Assembly: GCF_000975035.1 (NCBI RefSeq)
Contig: NZ_BBRA01000001.1
Coordinates: 949,184-1,013,183, forward strand
DNA from: Demequina flava
Lineage (GTDB): Bacteria > Actinomycetota > Actinomycetes > Actinomycetales > Demequinaceae
Reading direction: 5' to 3'
Length of the DNA stretch: 64,000 nt
Shown here piece after piece: positions 284-13,277 of this stretch. Each line of letters starts with the position of its first letter. Positions within the stretch are counted from its first letter, which is position 1. The position numbers were made by a program, and so were the translations under genes. The notes under the pieces were generated by a model. That model was given only the letters and a program-made list of their open reading frames with translations. It ran no database searches and was not told the DNA's origin.

Positions 284-1144
284 CTACTGCGAATCCCACA
301 CGTCCTTGTAGTCGCGGACAAACTCGGCCATGGTGCCCGCCGGCTCACCCGTGAGTTCGCGAATCTTCTTATTTGGGAACGCGGAGACGTTCAGGCGCAC
401 CACCTTGTGGATCATGCGCTGCACGGCCACGTAGTCCTCGGGGTATCCGCGGCGGCGTAGATCGTCGAGGAACTCGTCCTCCTTGGGCCGCGTGTACGTG
501 ATCTCACGGCCCAGCTGCTCGGACATGATCTTCGCGACGTTTTTGTACGACAAAGACTGCTCACCAGAGAGCGTGTACGCCTTGCGGGTGTGCCCGTCCC
601 CGGTCAGCACTGCGCCTGCCACCTTGCCGATGTCGCGCGCATCAATGAACGCTGTGCGCGAGCGCCCGGCTGGCACAAAGATCTCGTCGCGTTCGCGAAT
701 CGCCTCAACGTACGCGCTGGAAAGGTTCTGCATGAAGAAGTTGGGGCGCAGCATTGTGTACGGCGCGTCGACCTCCTTCAGGTAGGCCTCGACGGCGTGG
801 TGTGGAGTGCTGCGATTGCCCTGAACGCCTTGGAGCGAGAGGAAAGCAATCTGCTTGAGTCCGCGGCGTTGGGCCGCATCAATCAGGGGAAACAGATACG
901 TCTTCACGTCCTCGATGGCGGGCGGACGCATGAGGAATAAGCTGTCGCTTCCCTCGAGCGCGGCGTCCATCTGGGCCGGGGTGTACGCGAAGTCGAACTC
1001 CCGCGCCTCGACGCCCTCCGGAAGGGCCGCGGCATCGGCCTCCTGACGCACGGCGCCCACCACTGAGGCGCCACGAGCGAGCAGGTTCGTCACGGTGGGC
1101 ATGCCAACCGTCCCGGTGGCTCCGGTCACGAATACTGTGGTCAT
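284..1144 (-). CDS. NmrA-like NAD(P)-binding oxidoreductase (SDR superfamily)
   Basis: A 286-residue atypical short-chain dehydrogenase. The N-terminal Rossmann motif GATGTVG (residues 8-14) binds NAD(P). The LRPNFFMQNL segment and C-terminal half resemble NmrA/HSCARG-type quinone or redox-sensing reductases. The start overlaps the MarR gene stop by 4 bp (ATGA), so the two are translationally coupled. The context is a small operon: NAD(P)-binding protein, MarR, this gene. That suggests a MarR-controlled response to quinones, electrophiles or aromatic compounds. The exact substrate is not visible. Family assignment is firm; physiological role is inference. Confidence 0.85.
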   Translation of the reverse strand: MTTVFVTGATGTVGMPTVTNLLARGASVVGAVRQEADAAALPEGVEAREFDFAYTPAQMDAALEGSDSLFLMRPPAIEDVKTYLFPLIDAAQRRGLKQIAFLSLQGVQGNRSTPHHAVEAYLKEVDAPYTMLRPNFFMQNLSSAYVEAIRERDEIFVPAGRSRTAFIDARDIGKVAGAVLTGDGHTRKAYTLSGEQSLSYKNVAKIMSEQLGREITYTRPKEDEFLDDLRRRGYPEDYVAVQRMIHKVVRLNVSAFPNKKIRELTGEPAGTMAEFVRDYKDVWDSQ

Positions 1145-1581
1145 GGCGTCTCCTCAATCGTGCGCCCAAGCAGGTCTGCCAACGCGTGCATCTCGGAATC
1201 GTCGAGCGCCTCAAAGAAGGGGGTCATGCGCGTCGCAGCAGCCGATTCAAAGTCAGCGACTACGCCGCGCGCGCTGTCGGTCAGGCGAATCAGGCGCGAG
1301 CGCGCATCATGGGGATGCTGTACTTGCTCCGCCAGACCCTCCGCGACCAACGGCTCCAGCAACTGCGAGACCGCCCCGCGGGTCACGCCCAGCTGAGTGG
1401 CAAGCACGCCGGGCGTCACGTCCGCCGGGCCGTGGGCAAGCATGAACAGCACGTCCACCTGCGCCCGGCTGAGTTTGGCCTCGGCAAATGGAGGCGCGGG
1501 CAGCGACGCCAGCCGGCGTTGCCACATCACGAGGGACTCGAGAACCGAGCCCACTTGTGCGGCGCGTGTCATGTCACGCAC
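1141..1581 (-). CDS. MarR-family transcriptional regulator
   Basis: A 146-residue winged-helix protein with the MarR layout. Residues around 45-110 carry LSRAQVDVLFMLAHG, then the recognition helix GVTRGAVSQLLEPLVAEGL, then the wing HPHDARSRLIRLTDSG-like segment. The family binds palindromes as dimers and releases DNA on binding phenolic or oxidising ligands. It overlaps its upstream neighbour by 8 bp and its downstream neighbour by 4 bp. A second in-frame ATG at 1572 would avoid the upstream overlap and is an alternative start. The palindrome at 2211-2225 is the likely operator for autoregulation of all three genes. Confidence 0.88.
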   Translation of the reverse strand: MRDMTRAAQVGSVLESLVMWQRRLASLPAPPFAEAKLSRAQVDVLFMLAHGPADVTPGVLATQLGVTRGAVSQLLEPLVAEGLAEQVQHPHDARSRLIRLTDSARGVVADFESAAATRMTPFFEALDDSEMHALADLLGRTIEETP

Positions 1582-2203
1582 TCACGAACGGCATCTGGTG
1601 CACAAATGAACGGTCGTCGATTTGCTTGACGATGAAGTCGGCAAGGTCATCGCGGCTGATCTGCGTGGAGGCTTCGACGCCTACCCAGCTCACGCGATAC
1701 GACCCCACCCCCGGGTTTTCGGTGAGCCTGGGTGCACGCACCACGGTCCAGTCAAGGCCGGAAGCCTCAAGGACTTCCACGTGGCCCTCGGCGTCTGAGA
1801 GGAGATGCCCCGACAGGAGCTTGAGGAGCGCGCGGATGATCTTGTCGGGGACACCTGGCTGGTCCTTGTCCGCACCCAAGCCTCCTCCGGACAACGTCAC
1901 AATCCTGCTAATGCCTTGGGCCTTCATCGCCTCGACGATGTGCCGGGTGCCGTCGGTCTGGAGCGTGTGCGAGGACCCCTTGACATGGCCAAACAAACTC
2001 AAGACAGCATCGGCCCCTGCGACCGTCTCGGAAACGGTAGTCGCGTCCTGGACATCTCCCTGAACGGACGTCAAACCCTCGCGGGAGGGTAGCTTCGACG
2101 CGTCGCGCGCGAGGGCACGCACCTCATACCCGGCGTCGAGCAGGCGAGTGAGAACACGTGATCCAGTCTTGCCGGTGGCACCAAAGAGAGCAATTGTGGT
2201 CAT
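1574..2203 (-). CDS. NAD(P)H-binding protein (NmrA/SDR-like)
   Basis: A 209-residue protein with a Rossmann fingerprint GATGKTG at residues 8-14, then RALARDASKLP and VQGDVQDA, typical of the NAD(P)H-binding (NAD_binding_10) family related to flavin reductases and NmrA. It is the first gene of the MarR operon. The start ATG at 2203 lies 6 nt downstream of a TAAACT hexamer, so the transcript may be leaderless. The operator-like palindrome overlaps that hexamer. The catalytic role is unknown. Cofactor binding is well supported. Confidence 0.85.
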   Translation of the reverse strand: MTTIALFGATGKTGSRVLTRLLDAGYEVRALARDASKLPSREGLTSVQGDVQDATTVSETVAGADAVLSLFGHVKGSSHTLQTDGTRHIVEAMKAQGISRIVTLSGGGLGADKDQPGVPDKIIRALLKLLSGHLLSDAEGHVEVLEASGLDWTVVRAPRLTENPGVGSYRVSWVGVEASTQISRDDLADFIVKQIDDRSFVHQMPFVSA

Positions 2204-2247: not shown

Positions 2248-3438
2248 TCATACCTGTGGGTTGATCTGCCTGCCACCTGGTGCGATGACGACGAACAGGA
2301 CCGCGACAAAGGCGCCCCACGCCGGAAAGAACCACCACATGTATGTGGCGCCGCCACCGCCTGCTGCCGAATAGATCACGCCGCCAATGGTCGACCCCGT
2401 CACGGACCCGATCGCCGTCGCAAGCCCCTGCAGCCCAAAGTAGGACGCAATCGATGTCGATGGCGCGAACGTGGAGACCACGGCGTTCATCACCGGCTGC
2501 GCGAGCATCTGCCCTGTCACAAACACGGCCACGCCCACAAGCATGGTCGCGGTCACAGGCGCTGAGCCAATGACGGCCACCCCACAGCCCATCAACGCCA
2601 CAGCGAGCGCAAGGATCACGGGACGGGACAGGCGCGTGTTGACGAAGCCTGTGAGCGGCAACATCGTGATGACCATGACGACTGCCGCGGCGCTGTAGAC
2701 CACGCCGACGCCGACGGAGCCGGGCAGCAACTCACCCGCGCGGAACGGAATCACCAAATAGAACTGCGACACCAGGACCGCCACCCCGGCCACAAGCAGG
2801 CAGTACCGCACAAAGGGTGCATCGAGGAATGCCGTGCGTAACCTCGGCGGCGCCACGCCTTCGGGCCGGTGCATGGAAGGCAGGCCAAAGAAGCTGATGA
2901 CGAACGCGAGCATGAAGAGCGCAGCAGAGGCCAGGGTCACCAGCTGGAAGTCGACCCCGGACAGCAGGCCACCCAGTACCGGGCCTACAACGAAGCCGAC
3001 ATTGCTGATGACCTCGCGCTTTGAGTACACGCGCACCCGGTCGCCCGAACTCGCCAAGGCCGCGTAGGCACCGTAGCTCGCGGGGTGGAACAGGGCGCCC
3101 CCGAGTCCGGTCAGCAGCGACGCCACCACCAGCACCTCAACGACATCTGAGACGCCAAGTAGCGCAAAGCCCGAGGCCCGGATCACGACGCCCAGGAGGA
3201 TCGCGCGGCGGAAGTTGATGCGGTCGGCGATCCAGCCCGCAATCGGCATTGTGCCGTTCTGGGCAGCGGTGCGCACGGCGGTCAACGCGGCGACCACGGC
3301 AATCGTCAGGCCGATGTCTTCGAGGAAGTGGTACGCCAACAGCGGCACCAGCATGTAGAAGCCCACGGCCATCGTGAAGGTGTCCGCGTAAAGAACCTTG
3401 AGCGCTGTTGCTCGCCCCTCGGGCAGCTCCCTAGTCAC
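2248..3438 (-). CDS. MFS transporter
   Basis: A 396-residue protein with about 12 hydrophobic segments and the MFS loop 2-3 region (GWIADRINFRRAILLG). The general shape resembles drug or sugar exporters of the DHA1 type. It is the last gene of the long sugar operon and overlaps the DUF624 gene by 8 bp, so it probably moves a sugar, sugar acid or degradation product linked to that pathway. No residue pattern identifies the substrate. The reading frame is intact, with no signal peptide beyond the first membrane segment. Confidence 0.82.
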   Translation of the reverse strand: MTRELPEGRATALKVLYADTFTMAVGFYMLVPLLAYHFLEDIGLTIAVVAALTAVRTAAQNGTMPIAGWIADRINFRRAILLGVVIRASGFALLGVSDVVEVLVVASLLTGLGGALFHPASYGAYAALASSGDRVRVYSKREVISNVGFVVGPVLGGLLSGVDFQLVTLASAALFMLAFVISFFGLPSMHRPEGVAPPRLRTAFLDAPFVRYCLLVAGVAVLVSQFYLVIPFRAGELLPGSVGVGVVYSAAAVVMVITMLPLTGFVNTRLSRPVILALAVALMGCGVAVIGSAPVTATMLVGVAVFVTGQMLAQPVMNAVVSTFAPSTSIASYFGLQGLATAIGSVTGSTIGGVIYSAAGGGGATYMWWFFPAWGAFVAVLFVVIAPGGRQINPQV

Positions 3439-4060
3439 TGGCGGATGACGGCCATAGCCGGATGGCTGCGTAGACCGGAACCGACATGAAGATAAACGGC
3501 GCCAATGTCGGTAGCAGCCCGCACACCACGGCAGTCAGGCACATCGCCAACACGACCCCGAAGGACCGCGCGGGATAGCTCAGCATGATCTGCGTCGCCG
3601 CTCGCAGCCAGTCGTGAGTCGCCGCATCAGGCATCAGCGCGGACGCCGTGCACAGCGCAAGGCCGTACAGGCACACCATCACCGCGACGGGAACCATCGC
3701 AGCCGCGAATACCAAGCCAATGGTGGACTCGCCGGAGGTCAGTTGGCTCACCAGAAAGACGGCGTCGATGACCAATACAACGAGCACCACGGCCCCAACC
3801 AGGCCCGGGACCACCGTGCGGCGCCACGTCTGCCCAAAATGCCGGAAGGTGTTGCGAAAGACGTCATCGCGTTCGCCGACGTCCCACTGCCCAAAGCTGC
3901 GAGCCAAGGCCACACCTGCAGGCACCAGCGTCACGATGGGAAGCGCGAGAATCAGCCCCGCGAGCGCACCGAGGATGATGTTCGCCGGATAGGCCAAAGC
4001 ATCGAGGATCCGCAGTTCCCACCGCGGCCCTCGACGCTTGGTCGCCGGCGCTCGTGTCAC
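3431..4060 (-). CDS. DUF624 (YesL-like) membrane protein
   Basis: A 209-residue integral membrane protein with five or so hydrophobic segments, including ILGALAGLILALPIVTLVPAG near residues 28-50. It has the GERDDVFRNTFRHFGQTWRR loop seen in DUF624/YesL proteins. This family is regularly found beside sugar ABC transporters and polysaccharide-degradation genes (Bacillus yesL, for example), but its molecular function is not established. It overlaps the upstream heparinase-like gene by 4 bp and the downstream MFS gene by 8 bp, so it is part of the same transcript. Confidence 0.8.
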   Translation of the reverse strand: MTRAPATKRRGPRWELRILDALAYPANIILGALAGLILALPIVTLVPAGVALARSFGQWDVGERDDVFRNTFRHFGQTWRRTVVPGLVGAVVLVVLVIDAVFLVSQLTSGESTIGLVFAAAMVPVAVMVCLYGLALCTASALMPDAATHDWLRAATQIMLSYPARSFGVVLAMCLTAVVCGLLPTLAPFIFMSVPVYAAIRLWPSSASD

Positions 4061-6024
4061 GCAGACTCCTCCCTGCGGGCTGCGAAGCCCTCGCCTGCCA
4101 CATCGGCATCAGCCAGATGAGGCGTCTCATTGTCCCAACCCACGGACACGGACTCTGTCGCTGTGTCCGTCGTGATCTCGATGACGACTCCGTCAGCGTG
4201 ATCGGTGCGTTGGACCGTGACTCGACCACCATCGTCCCATCGCCGCGGCGCCAGAACCGTCACAAAACGGGCATGCGCCTGGGGCGCACTGCGGCGAGTC
4301 AGCGTGTACTGGGGCTTGTCGATGGCCAGCGATGGTGTCGACGAGGTGGGGTTGGCGTGCACCATGGTGCGCTGCACCTGACCAGACCCGTGCTCATCCA
4401 CCGGAATCACGGACATGATTGCGGAGCCTGCCGACGCCAACCACCGCCCGTCACCCTCGTCGACCGGCTCGTTATCGGTTTGAATCAGGACCGACCACTC
4501 ACGATCCTGTTCCGCCGCCAGGTCGTCCACGACCACCAGGTTTCCCTCGGGGGTCAGGACAATGTGGCGCCGCACCTGCGTCACTCCAAGCGCCCGGTCA
4601 TACATCGCGGACGTCTCACTGACCGCGTGGGTCCAGCCATCGGCAAGGGTGGTCCGCACAATCTCGGCTGTGTACTCCTCAGCGAGTTCCTCGAACACGT
4701 GATAGCGATCTTCGTTGACGAAGCCCTGCCCGTCCACCAGGACGGAGTTGTGATGCTCGGTGCGCTTGCGTGATGAGTAACCCTCATCGATCGCGAGGTA
4801 GCCACCGTGCGCGAGGAACTCGAAAGAACCAGAGTCAGGGTGGTGGTGTCCCGCGTTGAGGGTCACCCACCCGTTGTCACGGCGCTGCTGGTGCGACATG
4901 TCCCAGGCCTTGTGGCCGCCACCTGGCGAGGCCTTGAACGACACCATCGCCGCGTCACGGTCCCAACTCGTCCGGCCTACGACAAGACCCAGGTCAGGGA
5001 AGTAGCGCTGTGGGGGCAGCGCCGTCGGATCTTCTGCCTCCACCTCGGGGTCAAGCCACAACAACTCCTGATACGCCTCGGGGCGCACGCCCGGCTTCAC
5101 GCCACTCTCGTACGCCTCGCGCCAGTAGAAGCGTTCGTCGACCACGTCCGCGAGCCACTGCGCCTGCGGGATCTTGTACTCCGCGGCGAGCTTGCGATAC
5201 AGCGCCACCGGGTGGCCACTGCGGCGGTCATGGCAGTCACCGTGGTCAATGATGCGCTCCAGGTCCGGCGCTGCTTGATACAGGCGGTACCAGAACGTTT
5301 CCTTCAGGTAGGTGCCGCGATGGAACCAGTCGATACCCTCCTGATCGCGCAACACGTCGAGGTAACTCGCGATCCACGGCACGCCGTAGCGCCAATAGAC
5401 CACGCCCTCGTTGTTGGAGCCGTCATCCGGCAGGTGATCGAGCACCAAGGCGAAGTTGGCCTTGGCTCGCTCGGTCCATTCACGCGCCTCGGGGTACCGG
5501 TCCTGGAGGGCGTAGCCCGCCGTCGCAAGTCCCGCGTAGCAAATCCAGTTGTGGTTCTGCCAGTAGGACGAGGACCACCAGCCGCCCTCCGTCTCCACCG
5601 CGAATGAGTAGAGTCGCTGGCCCTGCAAGAGCAGCTTGGCCTCAAGTCGTTCCCGCAGATCATCGGGGAGCGCGTCGCCGACCCACGAGTAGGTCAGCGA
5701 CAGTCCGTGAAGGATCCACCCGGCGTCGAGATCGTGGTCCGGAAGGTTCGCCTTGCCCCAATGCGGGAAGGACAGGGGCGGCTCGAGCCACCGCTGAAGC
5801 TCGTCGAGGTAGTGCTGCTGACCTGTGAGTCGATACGCCAGCGCAAGGTTGGCTGAACCGGGGCCAAAGTACGTGATGGACGCCAGCGGGTGCTCCTGGG
5901 GCAAGGACATTCCCTTGGCGCGATCGCACTCCTCAAGGAGACGCCGGAACGCCGCCGCGCGCGGGCCATTGACCTCGCGGCGCAGGTCATCTTCGCGGCC
6001 GTGAAGCAGGATGGGGTCAGTCAT
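4057..6024 (-). CDS. Heparinase II/III-like (DUF4962-type) polysaccharide lyase or hydrolase
   Basis: A 655-residue protein. The N-terminal half is an alpha/alpha toroid (YFGPGSANLALAYRLTGQQ, then WWSSSYWQNHNWICYAG around residues 145-165). The C-terminal half is beta-sheet rich, with HHHPDSGSFEFLAHGGYLA, IDEGYSS and HHNSVLVDGQG, the His-rich core seen in heparinase II/III-like enzymes. These cleave uronic-acid glycosides by beta-elimination. There is no signal peptide, so it probably acts in the cytoplasm on imported oligosaccharides. It overlaps both neighbours by 4 bp. It differs clearly from the second heparinase-like protein, which suggests two linkage specificities. The substrate is unknown. 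Confidence 0.8.
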   Translation of the reverse strand: MTDPILLHGREDDLRREVNGPRAAAFRRLLEECDRAKGMSLPQEHPLASITYFGPGSANLALAYRLTGQQHYLDELQRWLEPPLSFPHWGKANLPDHDLDAGWILHGLSLTYSWVGDALPDDLRERLEAKLLLQGQRLYSFAVETEGGWWSSSYWQNHNWICYAGLATAGYALQDRYPEAREWTERAKANFALVLDHLPDDGSNNEGVVYWRYGVPWIASYLDVLRDQEGIDWFHRGTYLKETFWYRLYQAAPDLERIIDHGDCHDRRSGHPVALYRKLAAEYKIPQAQWLADVVDERFYWREAYESGVKPGVRPEAYQELLWLDPEVEAEDPTALPPQRYFPDLGLVVGRTSWDRDAAMVSFKASPGGGHKAWDMSHQQRRDNGWVTLNAGHHHPDSGSFEFLAHGGYLAIDEGYSSRKRTEHHNSVLVDGQGFVNEDRYHVFEELAEEYTAEIVRTTLADGWTHAVSETSAMYDRALGVTQVRRHIVLTPEGNLVVVDDLAAEQDREWSVLIQTDNEPVDEGDGRWLASAGSAIMSVIPVDEHGSGQVQRTMVHANPTSSTPSLAIDKPQYTLTRRSAPQAHARFVTVLAPRRWDDGGRVTVQRTDHADGVVIEITTDTATESVSVGWDNETPHLADADVAGEGFAARREESA

Positions 6025-7814
6025 AGGGGAACCTCGTGAGTCGTAGGAAAAGTGTCAGGTGTCGCGAGAGTGATCAGCACCGCACCGTCGACCTGGGTGG
6101 CGTCGGTGACGGTCACCGATGGCCTCCCCACAGTCCAGGCGGTGACGAAGAAGGCCGATGCTCCACGCACCAACCAATCAGCCCCCATGAGGGTGCGGGC
6201 CGGGTTGTCAGATGGGCCGCGGACGGGGCGGGCTTGCAAGGTAGCGCCGGCCGATGCGCGGTGACTGCCGCTCAGCAGCGTGCCTTCCGCGGTGGTCCAG
6301 TGTGTAGTCCAGCCGCCGTCGACGCAGCCGATCGCCAGGTCGCAGGCGGGCCTGAGCCCCAGTGCGATGTCGTGATCGTCTCCGTCCGCGCACTCCACCC
6401 GCAGCACGTCGATCAGCACGCCGTCGGCCAGCAACAGTGCGCGGCGCACGATCGCTCCCGCAATAGCATCGGCCGTCTCGGCGACCACGAGTCCGTCCTG
6501 GGGCCGCCAAGTCGTGACGCGGCCGGTACCCTCTTGCTGCTCTTGCCCATCGATGCGCACGGTGGGGTGAGCCTGGGACGAGGCGTAATAGCCGTGCCGG
6601 AGCGGGCTGCCATACGGAGGAACACCCGGCGCCGGCTGCCACGCGGCACCATCGCCGTAGAGATAGAGACTGAGCTTGTCGAAGTGTCCGTGAGCGCCGC
6701 CGTGAGGTCCGGCGTCGAGGACCGCGTGAAGCCCCGCCGCCTGGTCAGAAAGCACGACATAGCCCGCGTCGGCAAAGTGATGGAAACCGCGGGCCGCGGC
6801 AGCACCACCCCGGGGCTGCCCTGCGAACCATCCGTCCAGCATCGCCTCCAAGCCGTCGTCGCGGTCGCCGATCGCAGTGCGCGCGAAGCGTTCCACCGGC
6901 TCGAGTCCCGTCGAGTCCCAGAACTGGTTGGCCAGGGTCACGACCTCAAGTACCTCACGCTGCATCGGCAGCCGGTCGTACGGCCCGTCGTGAAGGACGG
7001 GAAGCCGGCCATCGGGGCCGGCAAGAACTGCGAACACGTCGACCATGCCCCGTAGCCGTCGCTCAACATCTGCGGGCAGGTCGGCAGGGTCGGTACCGCG
7101 CAGGGTCAACAGATAGGCGCGCAGCACAAACAGGTGGTAGTACGTCGATGCTTCCCATTCCCACCCGTCATCCATCACCGCCGCGTTGACGTGCTCGTAG
7201 AGAGCAGTGAGCGTGTGCCGCTCCGGCTCGGGCTCGCCCAACGCGTGCTGCGCGAGCGCGACCAAGCGGATCGCGGCATCGAGCCACGCGGTGTAGTTGT
7301 TGCGGTGGTCGCCGCGCTCAACGACCAAGGTGTGGCGCGCATCGACCATGGTCCGCATCACGCCAGCGAGCATCGCCCGAATAGATGTGGACTGCCCCAC
7401 CTCCGGCACGCTTGCCAACTCAGCCACAGCATCGGCGATACCCACCGCCCACTGCGCCTCGGACAGCGCCTGCGCAAACAGCTTTCCGCGCAGCATCCAC
7501 GGTTCGGAGCTTTCACTCCAGCCCTCGGCCTCGATTCGGGAGTAGAGCGCGCCGTACGTCCTGAGTATCTCGACCGCAGCGGCGCGATCGCCATGATCGC
7601 CGTGGGTCGTGAAACGTCGCGCATGATGACGCGCGGCTCGCGCAATCTCTTGGTGCTCAAGCGCGAGCCACGCGCCATGGAACTTCTGCCCCGTGAGCGT
7701 GCATCCGCACGCCCCGAAGAATGCCTCCCCATCCCGACCTGCCAGCTCCGTGCCGTGGGTCGGGCACACAAAGTCGTGCCACCAGCCGCCGGGTTCTTGG
7801 GGAACAGTCGTCAT
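6021..7814 (-). CDS. Heparinase II/III family protein
   Basis: A 597-residue cytoplasmic protein. The N-terminal Cys/His cluster (CPTHGTEL...FFGACGCTL, residues about 17-36) resembles the zinc-ribbon-like start of many heparinase II/III proteins. An alpha-helical toroid follows. Near residues 370-430 are GPHGGAHGHFDKLSLYLYGD and AHPTVRIDGQEQQ, the catalytic His/Tyr-bearing sheet region typical of exo-acting oligo-uronate lyases (PL15/PL17-like). It is translationally coupled to the SDR gene and to the second lyase-like gene. It contains the only copy of the genome-iterated motif in the operon (6466-6474). The substrate is inferred only as a uronate oligomer. Confidence 0.82.
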   Translation of the reverse strand: MTTVPQEPGGWWHDFVCPTHGTELAGRDGEAFFGACGCTLTGQKFHGAWLALEHQEIARAARHHARRFTTHGDHGDRAAAVEILRTYGALYSRIEAEGWSESSEPWMLRGKLFAQALSEAQWAVGIADAVAELASVPEVGQSTSIRAMLAGVMRTMVDARHTLVVERGDHRNNYTAWLDAAIRLVALAQHALGEPEPERHTLTALYEHVNAAVMDDGWEWEASTYYHLFVLRAYLLTLRGTDPADLPADVERRLRGMVDVFAVLAGPDGRLPVLHDGPYDRLPMQREVLEVVTLANQFWDSTGLEPVERFARTAIGDRDDGLEAMLDGWFAGQPRGGAAAARGFHHFADAGYVVLSDQAAGLHAVLDAGPHGGAHGHFDKLSLYLYGDGAAWQPAPGVPPYGSPLRHGYYASSQAHPTVRIDGQEQQEGTGRVTTWRPQDGLVVAETADAIAGAIVRRALLLADGVLIDVLRVECADGDDHDIALGLRPACDLAIGCVDGGWTTHWTTAEGTLLSGSHRASAGATLQARPVRGPSDNPARTLMGADWLVRGASAFFVTAWTVGRPSVTVTDATQVDGAVLITLATPDTFPTTHEVPL

Positions 7815-8575
7815 CGGAAGTTCAGGCCTCCGTTGATGTCGAGGACCTGACCGGTGACGTAGGACGACAGGTCCGAGGCCAGGAACTCCACGACGTCGGC
7901 GACATCCTGCGCCGTGCCTCCACGTCCCAGCGGAATACCGGAGACGATGCCCTTCTGGTTTTCAGCCGGCGTAAAGGTGTCGTGGAACGGGGTGCCGCCG
8001 ATGAAGCCCGGTGCGACCGCATTGACCGTCACGGAGGTCGACGCTATCTCCTTCGCAAGCGCACGGGTGAAGCCGTTGATGGCCGCCTTGGACGTCGCGT
8101 AGATCACGGAACCTGCTCCACCGCCATTTTCCGCGGCCAGCGAGCTCATCATGACGATGCGGCCATGATCGGAGCCGGTGACGTGGGGCAATGCGCTGCG
8201 CGTCGTATAGAAGGCCGATGCCGTGTTGACGTCCATGATCTGGTCGTAACGCTCATCCGTGGTTTCTGCCACCGGTGCGCGGCCCACGAGGTGACCGGCG
8301 TTGTTGACGAGGATGTCGAGGCCACCGAGGAACTCCGCGGCCTTGTCGACGAACTCGGCGGCAGCTGCGGAGTCTGTGAGGTCGGCCTGGAGCGCGATAG
8401 CCCGCGTGCCACCTTCCTGGATTTCTGAGGCGACCGCTTCGGCACCGTCGGCCGACTTCGCGTAGTGGACCACAACATCGGCCCCAGCCTTGCCCAACGT
8501 CCGGGCGATCTGTGCGCCAATACCAACGCCGGCTCCGGTCACGATCGCGCGGCGGCCAGTCAGATCAATAGTCAT
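7811..8575 (-). CDS. SDR-family oxidoreductase (FabG-like)
   Basis: A 254-residue classical short-chain dehydrogenase with TGAGVGIG cofactor motif (residues 13-20), NNAG at about 90-93, catalytic Ser in MMSSLAAENGG and YATSKAA (Tyr/Lys) near 157-163. In uronate catabolic operons an SDR reduces the 4-deoxy-5-keto-uronate released by lyases, and this position between permeases and two lyase-like genes fits that role. The role is inferred from context; FabG-type fatty acid synthesis is unlikely here. It overlaps the downstream heparinase-like gene by 4 bp. Confidence 0.85.
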   Translation of the reverse strand: MTIDLTGRRAIVTGAGVGIGAQIARTLGKAGADVVVHYAKSADGAEAVASEIQEGGTRAIALQADLTDSAAAAEFVDKAAEFLGGLDILVNNAGHLVGRAPVAETTDERYDQIMDVNTASAFYTTRSALPHVTGSDHGRIVMMSSLAAENGGGAGSVIYATSKAAINGFTRALAKEIASTSVTVNAVAPGFIGGTPFHDTFTPAENQKGIVSGIPLGRGGTAQDVADVVEFLASDLSSYVTGQVLDINGGLNFR

Positions 8576-8618
8576 GAGTGCATTTCCTTTTTCTCGTTGC
8601 GGTCAGTCACGCCGGTCA

Positions 8619-9554
8619 TCACTTGATGCCTGCGTGGGTGAATCCCTGGATGAAGTACTTCTGCGCGAAGATGAACAGCAACACCATCGGCACCGTCGCC
8701 AGCGTGGTTCCGGCCATCAGGTACTGCCACTGGGTGTTATCCAGTTGCTGGAAGACAGCCAGTCCCACCTGGATCACACGCAGGTCCTCGCTTCGCGTCA
8801 CCAGCAGCGGCCACAGGAAGTTATTCCAGCTCTCTTGGAAGGTGAGCAGACCCACCGTCGCGATGGCAGGCTTGATCAGCGGCGTGTAGATCTGCGCGAA
8901 GATGCGGAACTCATTGAGTCCATCCACGCGTGCCGCTTCTTCCAGTTCCTTGGGCAGCGACAGATAGAACTGCCGGAATAGGAAGATGGAGGCAGCGGAG
9001 AGGCCGCCGGGGATGATCAGTGCCCACCAGGTGTCGAGCCAGCCCGTGCCCCCTTGTCCCATGATGTCGTTGCCGCCAAACAGCGGCATGAACTTCACCA
9101 TGAGGAACTGCGGCACGATCTTTGTGTACGTCGGAATCATCAACATTGCGACGAACGCAAGGAAGACGAACTCTCGGCCGCGGAAGTAGATGCGGGCCAG
9201 CGCATAGCCAGCCATCGCGCCCATCAGGATCGTGATGATCGTGTGAGACACCGCGATGATGAGGCTGTTGCGGAAGTACAGCCCGAACGGTGCGGCGTTG
9301 AGCGCCTCCGTGTAGTTGCTCCACACCCACTCCTCCGGCAGGAAGGTGGGCGGGAACTGGGCGAGCTCCGCGGGCGACTTAAGGCTCGTGAGCACCATCC
9401 ACACGAACGGCGTCAGCATGGTGATGGCGCCGAGCATCAAGAAGGCGTTCAGGATGATCGAGTTGTGGGTGGAGCGCCGGCGGTACCAGGCGCCAGGTTT
9501 GCCTTCGCGGGCAGGGCCGCCAATGACGATTGCGCGCGCTGTAGGGATAGTCAT
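8619..9554 (-). CDS. Carbohydrate ABC transporter permease (MalG-type)
   Basis: A 311-residue permease with six predicted membrane segments and the binding-protein-dependent transport loop EAARVDGLNEFRIFAQIYTPLIKPA near residues 215-240 (EAA motif), the docking site for the ATPase. It is of the CUT1 family, partner of the MalF-type gene 3 bp upstream. No ATPase gene is present in the operon, so a shared MsiK-type ATPase encoded elsewhere is expected, as is usual in actinobacteria. The first 35 residues are poorly conserved; a start further downstream is possible. Confidence 0.9.
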   Translation of the reverse strand: MTIPTARAIVIGGPAREGKPGAWYRRRSTHNSIILNAFLMLGAITMLTPFVWMVLTSLKSPAELAQFPPTFLPEEWVWSNYTEALNAAPFGLYFRNSLIIAVSHTIITILMGAMAGYALARIYFRGREFVFLAFVAMLMIPTYTKIVPQFLMVKFMPLFGGNDIMGQGGTGWLDTWWALIIPGGLSAASIFLFRQFYLSLPKELEEAARVDGLNEFRIFAQIYTPLIKPAIATVGLLTFQESWNNFLWPLLVTRSEDLRVIQVGLAVFQQLDNTQWQYLMAGTTLATVPMVLLFIFAQKYFIQGFTHAGIK

Positions 9555-9557
9555 GGG

Positions 9558-10514
9558 TCAGTCCTCTTCTCGCGTCGCACGACGGCTGATGAGCGTCATC
9601 ACCAGGAGGAACGCAAACAGCACGACCGACTGCGCGGCCGCCATTCCCATACGGAATTCCTGGAACGCGGAACGGTAGACCTCGTACGTCATCATCGTCG
9701 TCGCGTTGGCGGGGCCACCGTCAGTCAGCACATAGATCTGGTCGAAGACCTGGAAGGCGCCAATGATCGAGATGATGAAGACAAAGAACGTGGCGGGCTT
9801 GAGCATCGGGAGCGTGATTGAGAAGAACTTTCGCACCGCGGAAGCTCCATCCAATGACGCAGCCTCGTACAGCGAGTTGTCGATGTTCTGCAATGCGGCG
9901 ATGTAAATGAGCATCTTGATACCGATGCCCTGCCACGCGCCGACGATGATCACGGACCACATGGCCGTATCGGGGTCAACGAGCCATGCCTTGCCCGGGA
10001 GTCCAAAGAATTCCAAGATGCCGTTGAGCAGCCCGTACTGGGGGTTGAAGATCCACAGCCACACCATGGCGATGGCCACGGTTGCGGTGACCTGCGGCAG
10101 GAAGAAAGCGGTGCGATAGAAGCGCTGGAGGCGCAAGCCCTGATTCAGCGCGACGGCGACCACCACAGCGACAGCCATCGAGACCGGAACGGTCCAGAAG
10201 GTGTACCAGATCGTGTTCCAGATCGACTTAACGAACACCGGGTCCTGGAAGGTCTCGACGTAGTTGTCGAACCAGATCCAATTGGGCGAACTGAAGACGT
10301 CGTAGTCCGTGAAGGACAGGTAGAACGTGGCGATGACCGGGATCAGCGTCCAGATTCCGATGTGGAGCGCAGCCGGTGCGACCATCAGCCATCCGGCGCG
10401 GCGCTTGGAACGCTCAGCGGGGCTGAGGCCGCGGGTCTTGCGGGTCGTGGTCACGACCGTTGGCGGCTTCTCGGGTGGCGCAGGCGGTGATTCCGTGCGT
10501 TCGAAGATGCTCAT
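9558..10514 (-). CDS. Sugar ABC transporter permease (MalF/UgpA-type)
   Basis: A 318-residue CUT1 permease. After a Pro-rich cytoplasmic N-terminus it has six membrane segments and the EAA loop YEAASLDGASAVRKFFSITLPMLKPA near residues 220-245. It pairs with the MalG-type permease downstream and the lipoprotein upstream. It is separated from the binding-protein gene by a strong hairpin (10533-10572), which should lower permease expression relative to the binding protein. Confidence 0.9.
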   Translation of the reverse strand: MSIFERTESPPAPPEKPPTVVTTTRKTRGLSPAERSKRRAGWLMVAPAALHIGIWTLIPVIATFYLSFTDYDVFSSPNWIWFDNYVETFQDPVFVKSIWNTIWYTFWTVPVSMAVAVVVAVALNQGLRLQRFYRTAFFLPQVTATVAIAMVWLWIFNPQYGLLNGILEFFGLPGKAWLVDPDTAMWSVIIVGAWQGIGIKMLIYIAALQNIDNSLYEAASLDGASAVRKFFSITLPMLKPATFFVFIISIIGAFQVFDQIYVLTDGGPANATTMMTYEVYRSAFQEFRMGMAAAQSVVLFAFLLVMTLISRRATREED

Positions 10515-10532
10515 GGTGCCTTCCGTGGGAGG

Positions 10533-10572
10533 CGTTGCGGCCCGGAGGAGGAGGTCACTCCGGGCCGCAACG
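10533..10572 (-). terminator. Intercistronic stem-loop (partial terminator or mRNA stabiliser)
   Basis: Perfect 14-bp arms (10533-10546 and 10559-10572) with a 12-nt loop sit between the solute-binding protein stop and the first permease start. There is no T-run on the minus strand. Such hairpins after the binding-protein gene are a known way to keep its transcript more abundant than the permease part. The loop on the plus strand contains GGAGGAGG, which has no obvious role on the transcribed strand. Confidence 0.7.
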
Positions 10573-10577
10573 TCGTA

Positions 10578-11906
10578 CTACCGGTTGATTGCGTCCTGGA
10601 CCAGTGCCGCGAGGTCGTCGAGCGACTCCTGCGGCGTCTTCTGCTCAAGGAGGGCCGCCTCAACCGCGGGCGCGAAGTCTCCGCGGACCTCGAGCCAGGT
10701 GGAGGGACCACCCTCGCGCTGTGCGTACTCGAGGTTTTCGAGCGCGAACTGCACGAACCGATTTGACTGCACGTACTCGGACTCCAGCAGCTCGGTGAGC
10801 GCGGGCACGTTGCCACGCTGCTCGTTAGCAGCCAGCGCGACGTCAGGGCTCGACAGGAACTCGAGGAGAGCAGTCGCAGCCTCAGGCGAGGACGAGTTGC
10901 TGGAGACCGTAGCGAGGGTTCCACCGAAGAACATTCCGGGAACCTCACCCTCGATGAGGAACGGCTCCATGTGCTCCAGTGCCGATTCGTCGGCCTCGAG
11001 CGCCTGGGTCCACAGGTTGTTGTGCGCGATACCCATGGCGGCGCGGCCGTTGATCAGCGGGTTCACGATGTCGTCAGGCGAAGCGAAGCCGATGTCCTCA
11101 ACCTCATACGTGTTGACCATGTCGGTCATCAGCTCGAGAGCCGCGACACCCTGCTCGTTGTTGAACACGGGCTCGGTGACATCTTCGTTGAACAGTCCGC
11201 CGCCTGCGGAGAACAGCATGACTTCGAACGCCTGACGGGGGTCAAGCGACATCATGTCGAAGCCCGCACGGTCAAGGGAGCCGTTGTCGGCACGAACCGT
11301 CGTTGCTTCTGCAATCTCGACGAGTTCATCCCAGCTCGAGGGAGGCTCGGTGTAGCCGGCTTCCTCGAGGATGTCCATACGTGCCACGCCAAAGCGGGTG
11401 TCGAGCATGATCGGAACGGCGTAGACGTCGCCGTCCCACATTCCGGCCTCGACGATCGAGTCTGTGTAGACCTCCTTGAGCCCGTCCTCGGTCAGACCGA
11501 GCGGAGCGAGGTCAGCCAGGACGCCCTTGTCGGCGAAGCCTTCGATCCAGCCCACGCCCATCATCATCACGTCAGGCACGAGGCCCGAGGCGACGGCGGT
11601 GGTGAGCTTCTCATTCAGGTTTCCGTACGTCGTGTAGTCGACCTCGACCGTGACGTCCGGGTACATCTCGTAGAACTGGGGCAGCAGCTCGTCCTCGAGC
11701 AGTTCCTGTCCAGGCGTTCCCTCGAAGATCGGAGTCAGGAGGGAGATAGTGCCGGAGATTTCTGACGCTGCGGCGCTTGAGTCCCCGCCTGCTGTCGCGT
11801 CCGTGTCTTCTGATGCGGTCTCGCTTGAACACGCGGCCACGCTGACCACAAGGCCAGCCACCGCCGCTAGGCCCGTCCAGGACCTGATTCGTGGTGTCAC
11901 TCGCAT
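10578..11906 (-). CDS. Extracellular solute-binding lipoprotein (CUT1 family)
   Basis: A 442-residue lipoprotein starting at ATG 11906, chosen because it opens directly into a signal peptide (MRVTPRIRSWTGLAAVAGLV, lipobox SVAAC, Cys about residue 26) and has AGAGGA 8 nt upstream. An in-frame extension to 12194 would run through the promoter region and is rejected. The mature protein has the family-1 extracellular binding fold (FEGTPGQELLEDELLPQFYE, then VEVDYTTYGN). It captures the oligosaccharide for the two permeases. It is the first and probably best expressed gene of the operon, divergent from the LacI-type regulator. Confidence 0.92.
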   Translation of the reverse strand: MRVTPRIRSWTGLAAVAGLVVSVAACSSETASEDTDATAGGDSSAAASEISGTISLLTPIFEGTPGQELLEDELLPQFYEMYPDVTVEVDYTTYGNLNEKLTTAVASGLVPDVMMMGVGWIEGFADKGVLADLAPLGLTEDGLKEVYTDSIVEAGMWDGDVYAVPIMLDTRFGVARMDILEEAGYTEPPSSWDELVEIAEATTVRADNGSLDRAGFDMMSLDPRQAFEVMLFSAGGGLFNEDVTEPVFNNEQGVAALELMTDMVNTYEVEDIGFASPDDIVNPLINGRAAMGIAHNNLWTQALEADESALEHMEPFLIEGEVPGMFFGGTLATVSSNSSSPEAATALLEFLSSPDVALAANEQRGNVPALTELLESEYVQSNRFVQFALENLEYAQREGGPSTWLEVRGDFAPAVEAALLEQKTPQESLDDLAALVQDAINR

Positions 11907-12004: not shown

Positions 12005-12028
12005 ATCTGGTGTAACGATGCACCAGAT
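12005..12028. promoter_or_regulatory. Inverted repeat in the divergent promoter region (candidate operator)
   Basis: Perfect 8-bp arms ATCTGGTG / CACCAGAT with an 8-bp spacer, centred about 110 bp upstream of the solute-binding protein gene and 157 bp upstream of the LacI-type gene. The 16-bp half-site spacing could suit a dimeric regulator. It differs from the LacI-like site at 12118-12131, so it may belong to a second regulator. Confidence 0.45.
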
Positions 12029-12117: not shown

Positions 12118-12131
12118 GTAAATCGATACAC
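12118..12131. promoter_or_regulatory. Candidate LacI-type operator
   Basis: GT-AA-ATCGAT-AC-AC shows dyad symmetry around a central CG (GT..ATCGAT..AC). This is the usual form of LacI/GalR-family operators. It lies 43 bp upstream of the regulator start, where it could block its own promoter and, by looping, that of the operon. Confidence 0.5.
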
Positions 12132-12173: not shown

Positions 12174-13277
12174 ATGGCACGGACGACTATTCAAGATGTG
12201 GCGCGTGCCGCCGGGGTGTCACCGAGTTCGGTGTCGAATCTTCTTAACGGGCGCACCGAGCGCATGGTGCCGGCTACGCGCGAACGCATTGAACGCGCGA
12301 TTGAAGAGCTGGGCTACCGGCCCAACCGCGCGGCTCGGCAACTGCGCAGCGGCCACACCCAAACCATCGGCTTAGTTGTCCCCTCTGTGGGCAACCCCTT
12401 CTGGGGCGCGTTTGCCCGCGAAGTTGAGGTTGCAGCACAGGCCAAGGGCTGCAACGTACTTCTGTGCAACTCGGAGCGCGAACCTGATCGCGAGCGCCGC
12501 TACGTCGAGGAACTGTGGGAGGACGGCATCCGGGGCATCATTCTGTGCACCTCGCTGCCGTCGCTCGAGCATGTCGCTGGCTCCATCAAGGACGGCCTGC
12601 GCCTCGTGACGTTCGACCGCCCCGCCCAGCCAGACGACCCCTCCTCCGTCGTGAGCATTTCGATCGACAACGGCATCGGGGGGCGTCTGGCCACTTCACA
12701 TCTCATCGAACTCGGGCACGAGCGCATCGCCTTCGTGTCCGCCTCGATCCGCTCCGTCAACCGCTCCGCCCGCTACCGCGGGTACTGCGAAGCGATTGAA
12801 CAGGCAGGGATGTCCGTGGCCAGCATGCCGAGCTGGACGGGCGTCACCGCCGCAGAGTTCGGCGACGTCGAGGCGGCCGACGTAGGCCGCGCTGCGGCAC
12901 ACGCGCTCTTTGACGGATCAGGCCCCGCGCCCACCGCAGCAGTGGCCATCAACGACATCACCGCCCTGGGCTTCGCGCGCGGCTTGCGAGACATGGGACT
13001 GAAGGTTGGCGAGGACGTGTCAGTTATTGGCTTCGACGACATCATCCTGGCCGACCTCTACGACCCGCCGCTGACGACCGTGCGCCAGCCCATCGCGGAC
13101 ATGGCTCGCCTCGCAGTCGGCGAAGCTATTGAGCGCGCCGCCGCGGAGGATGAGCAAGCGGGCCGCTCGGTCCTCTTGCGCCCCGAGGTCGTCGTGCGCG
13201 AGTCGACTCAGCCCCCACGGAACGAGGGTCCCAAGCAACGCGCAAACGTGACAGCGCGAGAAGCCATCGGAAAGTAA
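12174..13277 (+). CDS. LacI-family transcriptional regulator
   Basis: A 367-residue repressor. The ATG at 12174 is preceded by AAGGAG 8 nt upstream and begins the helix-turn-helix TIQDVARAAGVSPSSVSNLL (residues 4-23), the diagnostic LacI start. The hinge YRPNRAARQLRSG follows, then a periplasmic-binding-like effector domain (TIGLVVPSVGNPFW, VIGFDDIILADLYDPPLTTV near the C-terminus). It is divergent from the oligosaccharide operon and most likely represses it until the sugar or a breakdown product binds. The upstream in-frame extension lacks a ribosome binding site and conserved residues. Confidence 0.92.
   Translation: MARTTIQDVARAAGVSPSSVSNLLNGRTERMVPATRERIERAIEELGYRPNRAARQLRSGHTQTIGLVVPSVGNPFWGAFAREVEVAAQAKGCNVLLCNSEREPDRERRYVEELWEDGIRGIILCTSLPSLEHVAGSIKDGLRLVTFDRPAQPDDPSSVVSISIDNGIGGRLATSHLIELGHERIAFVSASIRSVNRSARYRGYCEAIEQAGMSVASMPSWTGVTAAEFGDVEAADVGRAAAHALFDGSGPAPTAAVAINDITALGFARGLRDMGLKVGEDVSVIGFDDIILADLYDPPLTTVRQPIADMARLAVGEAIERAAAEDEQAGRSVLLRPEVVVRESTQPPRNEGPKQRANVTAREAIGK

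Follow-up and report, generated by a model that had tools for sequence, protein, structure and literature searches.

A probable LacI-controlled cassette for scavenging alginate oligosaccharides in Demequina flava

The operon described here, together with a divergent repressor gene, is probably a LacI-controlled cassette with which Demequina flava scavenges alginate oligosaccharides. It lies in a window of 64,000 nucleotides, the whole stretch of DNA that we analyzed. Alginate is the main polysaccharide of brown seaweed, and an alginate oligosaccharide is the most likely substrate. We observed the gene set, its synteny, the conservation of its operator, its co-occurrence with alginate enzymes, an operator common to PL7 genes in two other genomes, and the fold and catalytic residues of two heparinase-like proteins; from these we infer the substrate, the enzyme activities, the division of labor, and the inducer. 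The genes and sites are as follows.

2248..3438, minus strand: MFS transporter (PF07690, 1.5e-34; synteny), the last gene, optional in the cassette (18 loci)
3431..4060, minus strand: DUF624 membrane protein (PF04854, 1.8e-6), its cluster found in 80 loci
4057..6024, minus strand: 655-aa protein with DUF4962 and a heparinase II/III C-terminal region, of DSE/PL15/PL35/PL21-like type; predicted to act in the cytoplasm as an oligouronate lyase, with a C5-epimerase as the rival assignment
6021..7814, minus strand: 597-aa PL17/PL12-like heparinase II/III protein; predicted cytoplasmic oligo-alginate lyase
7811..8575, minus strand: SDR oxidoreductase (PF13561, 7.3e-57), kept in ~79 loci
8619..9554, minus strand: ABC permease of the MalG/UgpE type (PF00528, 3e-19)
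9558..10514, minus strand: ABC permease of the MalF/UgpA type (PF00528, 1.4e-18)
10578..11906, minus strand: solute-binding lipoprotein, SBP (PF01547, 2.4e-38); lipobox ...SVAAC-SS, read directly from the open reading frame
12010..12023, no strand: LacI-type operator GTGTAACGATGCAC, 0 mismatches to GTGYAWCGATRCAC
12118..12131, no strand: second LacI-type operator GTAAATCGATACAC, 2 mismatches
12174..13277, plus strand: divergent LacI-family repressor (PF00356/PF13377), start MARTT, kept in 75 loci

The eight genes named in the initial annotation lie where it placed them, all of them on the minus strand, and Pfam and NCBIfam matches confirmed their families. Its statement that most genes overlap by 4 to 8 bp was correct for four of the seven junctions (8 bp for MFS/DUF624 and 4 bp each for DUF624/655-aa, 655-aa/597-aa, and 597-aa/SDR) but not for the remaining three, where gaps of 43 bp (SDR/permease), 3 bp (permease/permease), and 63 bp (permease/SBP) separate the genes. 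It had missed the divergent LacI repressor gene, the two operator palindromes between the LacI and SBP genes, and the fact that the cluster encodes no ATP-binding subunit. A longer LacI reading frame, from 11925, would span the promoter, and the start was placed at MARTT instead. Direct reading of the N termini of the heparinase-like proteins (MTDPILLHGRED... and MTTVPQEPGGWWHD...), which are not hydrophobic, agreed with the proposal that neither has a signal peptide. The DUF624 protein, presumably an accessory of the CUT1 ABC importer, matched the MusI family NF052431 weakly (8.7e-9, under that model's cutoff).

Import by an ABC transporter, cytoplasmic lysis, and reduction by the SDR, as first proposed, is still the best-supported reading. 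The SBP and the two permeases would bring unsaturated oligouronides into the cell, with energy from an ATPase whose gene lies outside the cluster. Once in the cytoplasm, these would be cleaved by β-elimination to an unsaturated monomer by the 655-aa (DSE/PL15-like) and 597-aa (PL17-like) proteins, each probably specializing in a residue type (G or M) or a chain length, like PL15/PL17 oligo-alginate lyases. The monomer would open to the keto form of the unsaturated uronate, DEH, which the SDR is predicted to reduce to 2-keto-3-deoxygluconate (KDG); the kinase and KDPG aldolase of the genome would then convert KDG to pyruvate and glyceraldehyde-3-phosphate. The repressor would bind GTGYAWCGWTRCAC and presumably let go once a breakdown product binds to it. 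The solved DEH reductases A1-R' and A1-R were among many matches of the SDR, and since the search returned 702 SDRs, this likeness is compatible with the predicted role, not diagnostic of it.

The gene order recurs in about 75 to 80 actinobacterial loci, so the operon is more than a chance arrangement. Its carriers include dozens of sequenced Streptomyces, Kribbella, Isoptericola, and Salinibacterium strains and their relatives. All 17 of the sampled congeners of the window strain lack the cassette, which probably consists of borrowed genes. The alginate link comes from the genes beside these relatives' cassettes. About a dozen relatives have a PL7 gene (PF08787) next to their cassette, one of the secreted PL7 proteins matching the polyguluronate lyase 1UAI with an E value of 4e-127. 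PL6-like genes in relatives' loci have alginate lyases as their nearest solved structures, and KDG kinase and KDPG aldolase genes occur in 17 and 11 cassette loci, respectively. PL6 is found together with PL8 in three loci (L066, L069, and L084) and with PL7 in two (L071 and L105), which suggests that these enzymes act on one polymer. In favor of alginate, too, a Chloroflexota relative pairs the 655-aa homologue with a PF05426 and heparinase-C protein. A large Streptomyces clade has PL8, CE7, and a GDSL esterase in place of PL7, and the closest match of its PL8 is xanthan lyase rather than the PL8 mannuronate lyase. A GH88, more typical of glycosaminoglycan (GAG) or ulvan routes, was seen in one Chloroflexota relative. 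Among the recurrent neighbor clusters identified in the cassette loci, none was GH88, sulfatase, or KduI.

The operator also ties the cassette to PL7. Of 71 cassette promoters, 66 carry it, and within the same loci it is seldom found anywhere else. The genome of Paraoerskovia marina has only two zero-mismatch sites, one in the cassette promoter and the other in an intergenic stretch that lies upstream of a PL7 gene whose product is 79% identical to the Streptomyces PL7. A CBM32-PL7 gene of Catellatospora has two sites upstream, at distances of 121 and 137 bp, and further sites precede CBM32-β-helix genes in Isoptericola and Paraoerskovia. No site was found within 350 bp upstream of the PL8, CE7, GDSL, KDG kinase, or KDPG aldolase genes in the loci. 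One-mismatch matches in G063, G077, G116, and G250 were set aside as chance-like, being intragenic or upstream of unrelated genes, and the many matches in G257 belong to a different palindrome, GTGCAACGTTGCAC. With PL7, PL6, KDG kinase, and KDPG aldolase beside the cassette in relatives, and its operator upstream of PL7 in two of their genomes, the "alginate-like" substrate of the initial annotation proved apt, its suggestion that the substrate may be new found no support, and we dropped a new substrate as the leading reading.

The cluster of the window strain lacks a kinase or aldolase gene, as had been noted, but the genome does not: an adjacent KDPG aldolase/KDG kinase-like pair lies at C3:1705922-1707645, about 750 kb from the operon, and is orthologous to the pair found close to the cassette of L055 (84% and 77% identical, respectively). 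The fetched region around these two genes contained no cassette operator. KduI was not found in the window strain's genome, while control genomes did give matches; its absence is expected of a DEH-reductase route, for which the SDR is in the operon, the aldolase and kinase-like genes are adjacent in the genome, and KduI is not needed. Searches of the same genome detected no PL5, PL6, PL7, or PL8, the absence of PL7 and PL8 not being firm because control genomes also gave no match. The strain is therefore probably an oligosaccharide scavenger, and the link to alginate runs through its relatives.

Counting against alginate are the Streptomyces clade with PL8, CE7, and GDSL, the epimerase as nearest relative of the 655-aa protein, the Chloroflexota GH88, the failure to detect PL5, PL6, PL7, or PL8 in the strain's own genome, and the lack of an operator in the fetched region around its kinase and aldolase genes. 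We regard it as unlikely that the same architecture serves another β-1,4-linked uronide, such as (acetylated) glucuronan, a xanthan-type side chain, or an ulvan or GAG fragment. Such a substrate would suit the PL8 of large Streptomyces and Kribbella groups, which is nearest to xanthan lyase and is accompanied by CE7 and GDSL esterases, the resemblance of the 655-aa protein to the GAG enzymes DSE, PL35, and PL21, and the GH88 of the Chloroflexota relative. The cassette is also widespread in Streptomyces and Kribbella, genera typical of soil, and land habitats are said to hold little alginate (PMC7911691). However, where secreted enzymes share the operator, in two genomes, they are PL7 alginate lyases, the closest matches of the PL6 genes are alginate lyases, and the pairings of PL6 with PL8 and with PL7 suggest a single polymer. 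The lack of KduI in the window genome, and of GH88, sulfatase, and KduI among the recurrent neighbor clusters identified, speaks likewise for alginate; with KduI absent and alginate lyases recurring, we rated a GAG route lower.

Structure prediction gave high-confidence models of an (α/α)-toroid plus β-sheet for both heparinase-like proteins. The initial annotation held that the 655-aa protein is not of the classical PL type; this is weakly true of both proteins (~15 to 20% identity), but by profile and fold their nearest relatives are known families. Catalytic residues are largely conserved in both, and neither fits one characterized family.

For the 597-aa protein, PL17 came first in the profile search (66 bits; best PDB match), with PL12 second (42 bits). 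Foldseek also placed PL17 on top, and VIA-align scored PL17 (Z 28.3, rmsd 3.1, 523 aligned) about level with PL12 (Z 28.5, rmsd 5.2, 501 aligned). N173, Y174, Y226, H375, and H377 are invariant in 35 sequences, and Y410 is present in 34. Four of the five catalytic-site residues of Alg17c (N201, H202, Y258, H413, and Y450) are kept, as N173, Y226, H375, and Y410. The protein differs from PL17 enzymes (Alg17c, AlyA3, and BoPL17) in having the invariant Y174 at the position of H202, so that the full PL17 catalytic-site set is not present, in having Ala at that of D433 within the window clade (19 of the 35 sequences have Asp there), in an extra N-terminal CxxH...C..C Cys/His (zinc-ribbon-like) element, and in the VIA-align tie with PL12. 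We predict that it is a cytoplasmic oligo-alginate lyase, which as a member of PL17 would be exolytic.

The 655-aa protein is nearest to human dermatan sulfate epimerase (DSE), followed by PL35, PL21, and PL15. DSE (6HZN) led its PDB matches in the single-sequence search (5.9e-17), in the profile search (120 bits, versus 94 bits for PL15), and in VIA-align, where it reached Z 35.2 (rmsd 3.0, 620 aligned; next best Z 31.8; PL15 Z 28.7, rmsd 3.4, 587 aligned). PL15 is therefore not the closest family by profile or VIA-align Z; Foldseek alone placed the PL15 enzyme Atu3025 level with DSE. An NCBIfam HepB match was disregarded (24.8 bits against a cutoff of 600). N157, H158, Y210, H393, H395, and Y416 are invariant in 38 sequences. 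The catalytic H311, Y365, and H531 of Atu3025 have counterparts, Y210 and H393 by alignment with Y365 and H531, and H158 one column off H311 in the profile alignment. H158 aligns with DSE H205, and Y261, Y473, H450, and H452 of DSE align with Y210, Y416, H393, and H395; the DSE Mn site (H452/E470/N481) corresponds to H395, D413 (a conservative change), and N426. The DSE His/double-Tyr and metal-site residues are as given in PMC8006597. PL15 (Atu3025 and exoHep), PL35 (GAGases), and PL21 (heparinase II) share the fold and catalytic residues, but at about 15 to 21% identity no single one of them fits.

These matches to DSE raise the possibility, which we judge quite improbable, that the 655-aa protein is a DSE-type C5-uronate epimerase that converts M/G (or GlcA/IdoA) in imported oligomers and leaves a single 597-aa lyase to finish. 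Its family would then be a bacterial cytoplasmic C5-uronate epimerase, close kin of the animal enzyme, used catabolically with a PL17-like lyase bearing the zinc-ribbon-like element. Against this, the same residues work in PL15 and PL21 lyases, and very small changes may be all that sets an epimerase apart from a lyase (PMC8006597). Foldseek ranks Atu3025 beside DSE, two oligo-lyases are common in alginate users (PMC8286568, PMC11921355), and a catabolic operon would have no evident use for an epimerase. The setting of the 655-aa protein is cytoplasmic and catabolic, unlike that of DSE, the two are 18% identical, and its activity is predicted. That the operon is an ordinary CUT1 sugar operon with heparinase-like proteins that are inactive or act on an unrelated sugar is very improbable: weak Pfam scores (22 to 63 bits) and the Tyr in place of PL17 H202 would fit, but catalytic Tyr, His, and Asn positions are invariant over 35 to 38 divergent sequences and the toroid models are of high confidence.

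We return to alginate scavenging and view the operon as a divergent Gram-positive version of an already known kind of system. Like PL15/PL17 alginate catabolism in Vibrio, Sphingomonas A1, and Zobellia (PMC8286568), it combines two cytoplasmic (α/α)-toroid oligo-lyase-like proteins with an SDR, a kinase, and an aldolase, and with secreted PL7/PL6 endolyases, here in relatives; ABC import is shared with Sphingomonas A1 and Firmicutes. It differs from those systems in being actinobacterial and LacI controlled, in its DUF624 partner, in lyases that are only ~15 to 20% identical to characterized ones, and in that no endolyase was detected in the window strain. A search of the open-access literature found no account of such an actinobacterial cassette, which is not proof that none exists.

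An operon whose enzymes have so far been labeled generically, as "heparinase II/III-like" and DUF4962, thus gains a substrate hypothesis, and a specific operator is predicted to define an alginate regulon in actinobacteria. The DSE structure paper reported that no bacterial kin could be found by primary sequence (PMC8006597). The 655-aa protein represents a bacterial family detectably related to DSE by sequence, which makes it possible to test both the switch between lyase and epimerase and where DSE came from.

The operon carries eight genes, transcribed in the order solute-binding lipoprotein, two ABC permeases, SDR, a 597-aa protein, a 655-aa protein, DUF624 and an MFS transporter, the 597-aa and 655-aa proteins both being heparinase II/III-like. 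Four of the seven gene junctions overlap by 4 to 8 bp. The features of the window and of the rest of the genome (C3, contig coordinates) are as follows.

2248-11906, minus strand: whole operon
12010: operator GTGTAACGATGCAC
12118: operator GTAAATCGATACAC
12174-13277, divergent from the operon: LacI-family gene
C3:1705922-1707645: KDPG aldolase and adjacent PfkB kinase

The cluster contains no gene for an ATP-binding subunit; one ATPase is commonly shared by several actinobacterial CUT1 importers. By inspection, no signal peptide was found on either heparinase-like protein. We are highly confident that the cassette serves oligo-uronide import and cytoplasmic processing. The stretch that follows the MFS gene (284-2203, minus strand) holds, by inspection, a pair of NmrA/SDR-like genes together with a gene for a MarR-type regulator; these are not conserved with the cassette.

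We looked across 248 genomes of the order and found both heparinase-like genes close together in six further genomes, the same six for each; the pair was present in none of 17 sampled congeners. A scan of named genomes yielded 80 loci, about 75 to 80 of which, by gene calling and clustering, keep the unit from the divergent LacI gene and the lipoprotein through to DUF624. They come from Microbacteriaceae, Cellulomonadaceae, Promicromonosporaceae, Jiangellaceae, Kribbella, Micromonosporaceae, Nocardiopsis and Streptomyces. The maximum-likelihood tree placed the window protein with Salinibacterium (Microbacteriaceae; 100% SH-aLRT, 75% identity), which, together with the absence from congeners, points to gain of the cassette by horizontal transfer. 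A distant form of the heparinase-like pairing, here with GH88, was seen in a Chloroflexota locus (L112:8085-19855) that encodes LacI, SDR, a homologue of the 655-aa protein, GH88, ABC permeases and a protein of 923 aa combining CBM11, PF05426 and heparinase-C domains.

Of 71 loci, 66 have a palindrome near GTGYAWCGATRCAC (two mismatches at most) between the LacI and lipoprotein genes, and hardly any copies occur at other places in these loci; this conservation predicts, with high confidence, the LacI operator as mapped. When up to one mismatch is allowed, just two sites occur in the whole of the window's genome, that of the cassette and another inside a coding region. The Paraoerskovia marina genome has two zero-mismatch sites, one in the cassette and the other in an intergenic region that precedes a gene for a secreted PL7 (79% identical to a Streptomyces PL7). 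A further one-mismatch site occurs in that intergenic region, and the two sites there lie 323 and 500 bp ahead of the PL7 start codon. In Catellatospora sichuanensis a CBM32-PL7 gene has two one-mismatch sites in front of it, at distances of 121 and 137 bp, and operator sites also precede a CBM32-beta-helix gene in Isoptericola and P. marina. Since these sites precede PL7 and CBM32-beta-helix genes, regulation, besides position, links the cytoplasmic cassette to alginate lyases.

The substrate is most probably alginate. In relatives, the cassette is adjoined by secreted PL7 (PF08787), one of which matches the polyguluronate lyase 1UAI across its mature length (E 4e-127), by PL6-like proteins whose closest solved structures are alginate lyases, by CBM32-beta-helix proteins whose CBM32 is closest to those of alginate lyases, and by KDG kinase and KDPG aldolase genes. 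Many Streptomyces and Kribbella loci instead have PL8, closest to xanthan lyase, with CE7 acetyl and GDSL esterases (L065:14827-17229 and 31 other loci, many from Streptomyces). These PL8 proteins are predicted to be mannuronan or acetylated-alginate lyases, or else they signal a second substrate. PL6 occurs with PL8 and also with PL7, and the three kinds of locus partly interleave on the tree, a pattern that suggests one polymer for all; this is the softest link in the argument.

Two groups of secreted beta-helix neighbors deserve mention. A DUF1565 beta-helix protein lies directly 3' of DUF624 in 39 loci (L061-L114, Streptomyces and Kribbella; e.g., L083:12564-13643), and a similar one in Catellatospora (L164:5756-6814) is divergent from the operator-controlled PL7; these are possibly an uncharacterised lyase family. 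The CBM32-beta-helix proteins (L139:6251-8164, L143:3529-5475, L027:16330-18228 and L048:7524-10004), with a Pect-lyase/epimerase Pfam match, may form a new family of alginate lyases or epimerases.

The aldolase of the window's genome shares 84% identity, and the kinase 77%, with its counterpart in a pair downstream of a relative's cassette (L055); the kinase scores below the NCBIfam KDG-kinase cut-offs, so its substrate is inferred. KduI was not found in this genome, with control genomes giving matches, which fits an alginate route, the SDR taking DEH directly to KDG, and argues against a GAG/pectin route. The SDR is probably a DEH reductase. Near the aldolase/kinase pair lies a second, independent CUT1 operon (L121:6402-11350), probably for xylo-oligosaccharide use, which encodes a beta-helix protein of GH120 type (PF21258).

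Confident AlphaFold2 models of the 597-aa and 655-aa proteins (pLDDT 92.8 and 89.9) both showed an (alpha/alpha)-toroid plus antiparallel beta-sheet fold. For the 597-aa protein (encoded at 6021-7814), PL17 was the best match by profile and Foldseek, and tied with PL12 in VIA-align structure alignment. It retains N201, Y258, H413 and Y450 of the PL17 enzyme Alg17c, whereas H202 is replaced by a Tyr invariant in the family. Its N terminus carries a zinc-ribbon-like Cys/His element around a beta-hairpin (residues 9-38, GGWWHxYVCPxHG...C..C), nearly invariant in 35 homologues and lacking a Pfam match; C17, H20 and C38 are invariant, and C34 is present in all except the window protein, which has C36.

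Human dermatan sulfate epimerase (DSE) was the best match of the 655-aa protein by single sequence, profile and VIA-align, followed by PL35, PL21 and PL15; Foldseek put the PL15 enzyme Atu3025 level with DSE. The DSE residues H205, Y261, Y473, H450 and H452 (PMC8006597) correspond to H158, Y210, Y416, H393 and H395, invariant in 38 of 38 sequences. According to the comparison in a PL33 paper (PMC11848413), lyases and epimerase alike use these positions, which confer plasticity towards both D- and L-uronates; the residues alone therefore do not separate the two activities. We consider it probable that both proteins are lyases.

No PL5, PL6, PL7 or PL8 was detected in the window's genome, although for PL7 and PL8, whose controls gave no match, the absence is not firm; on this basis the strain would seem to scavenge oligomers that others release. 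The pathway itself is already known, and the open-access literature searched held no description of an actinobacterial LacI-controlled version with DSE-like and zinc-ribbon-bearing PL17-like enzymes; we therefore judge the cassette to be a variant of a known pathway.
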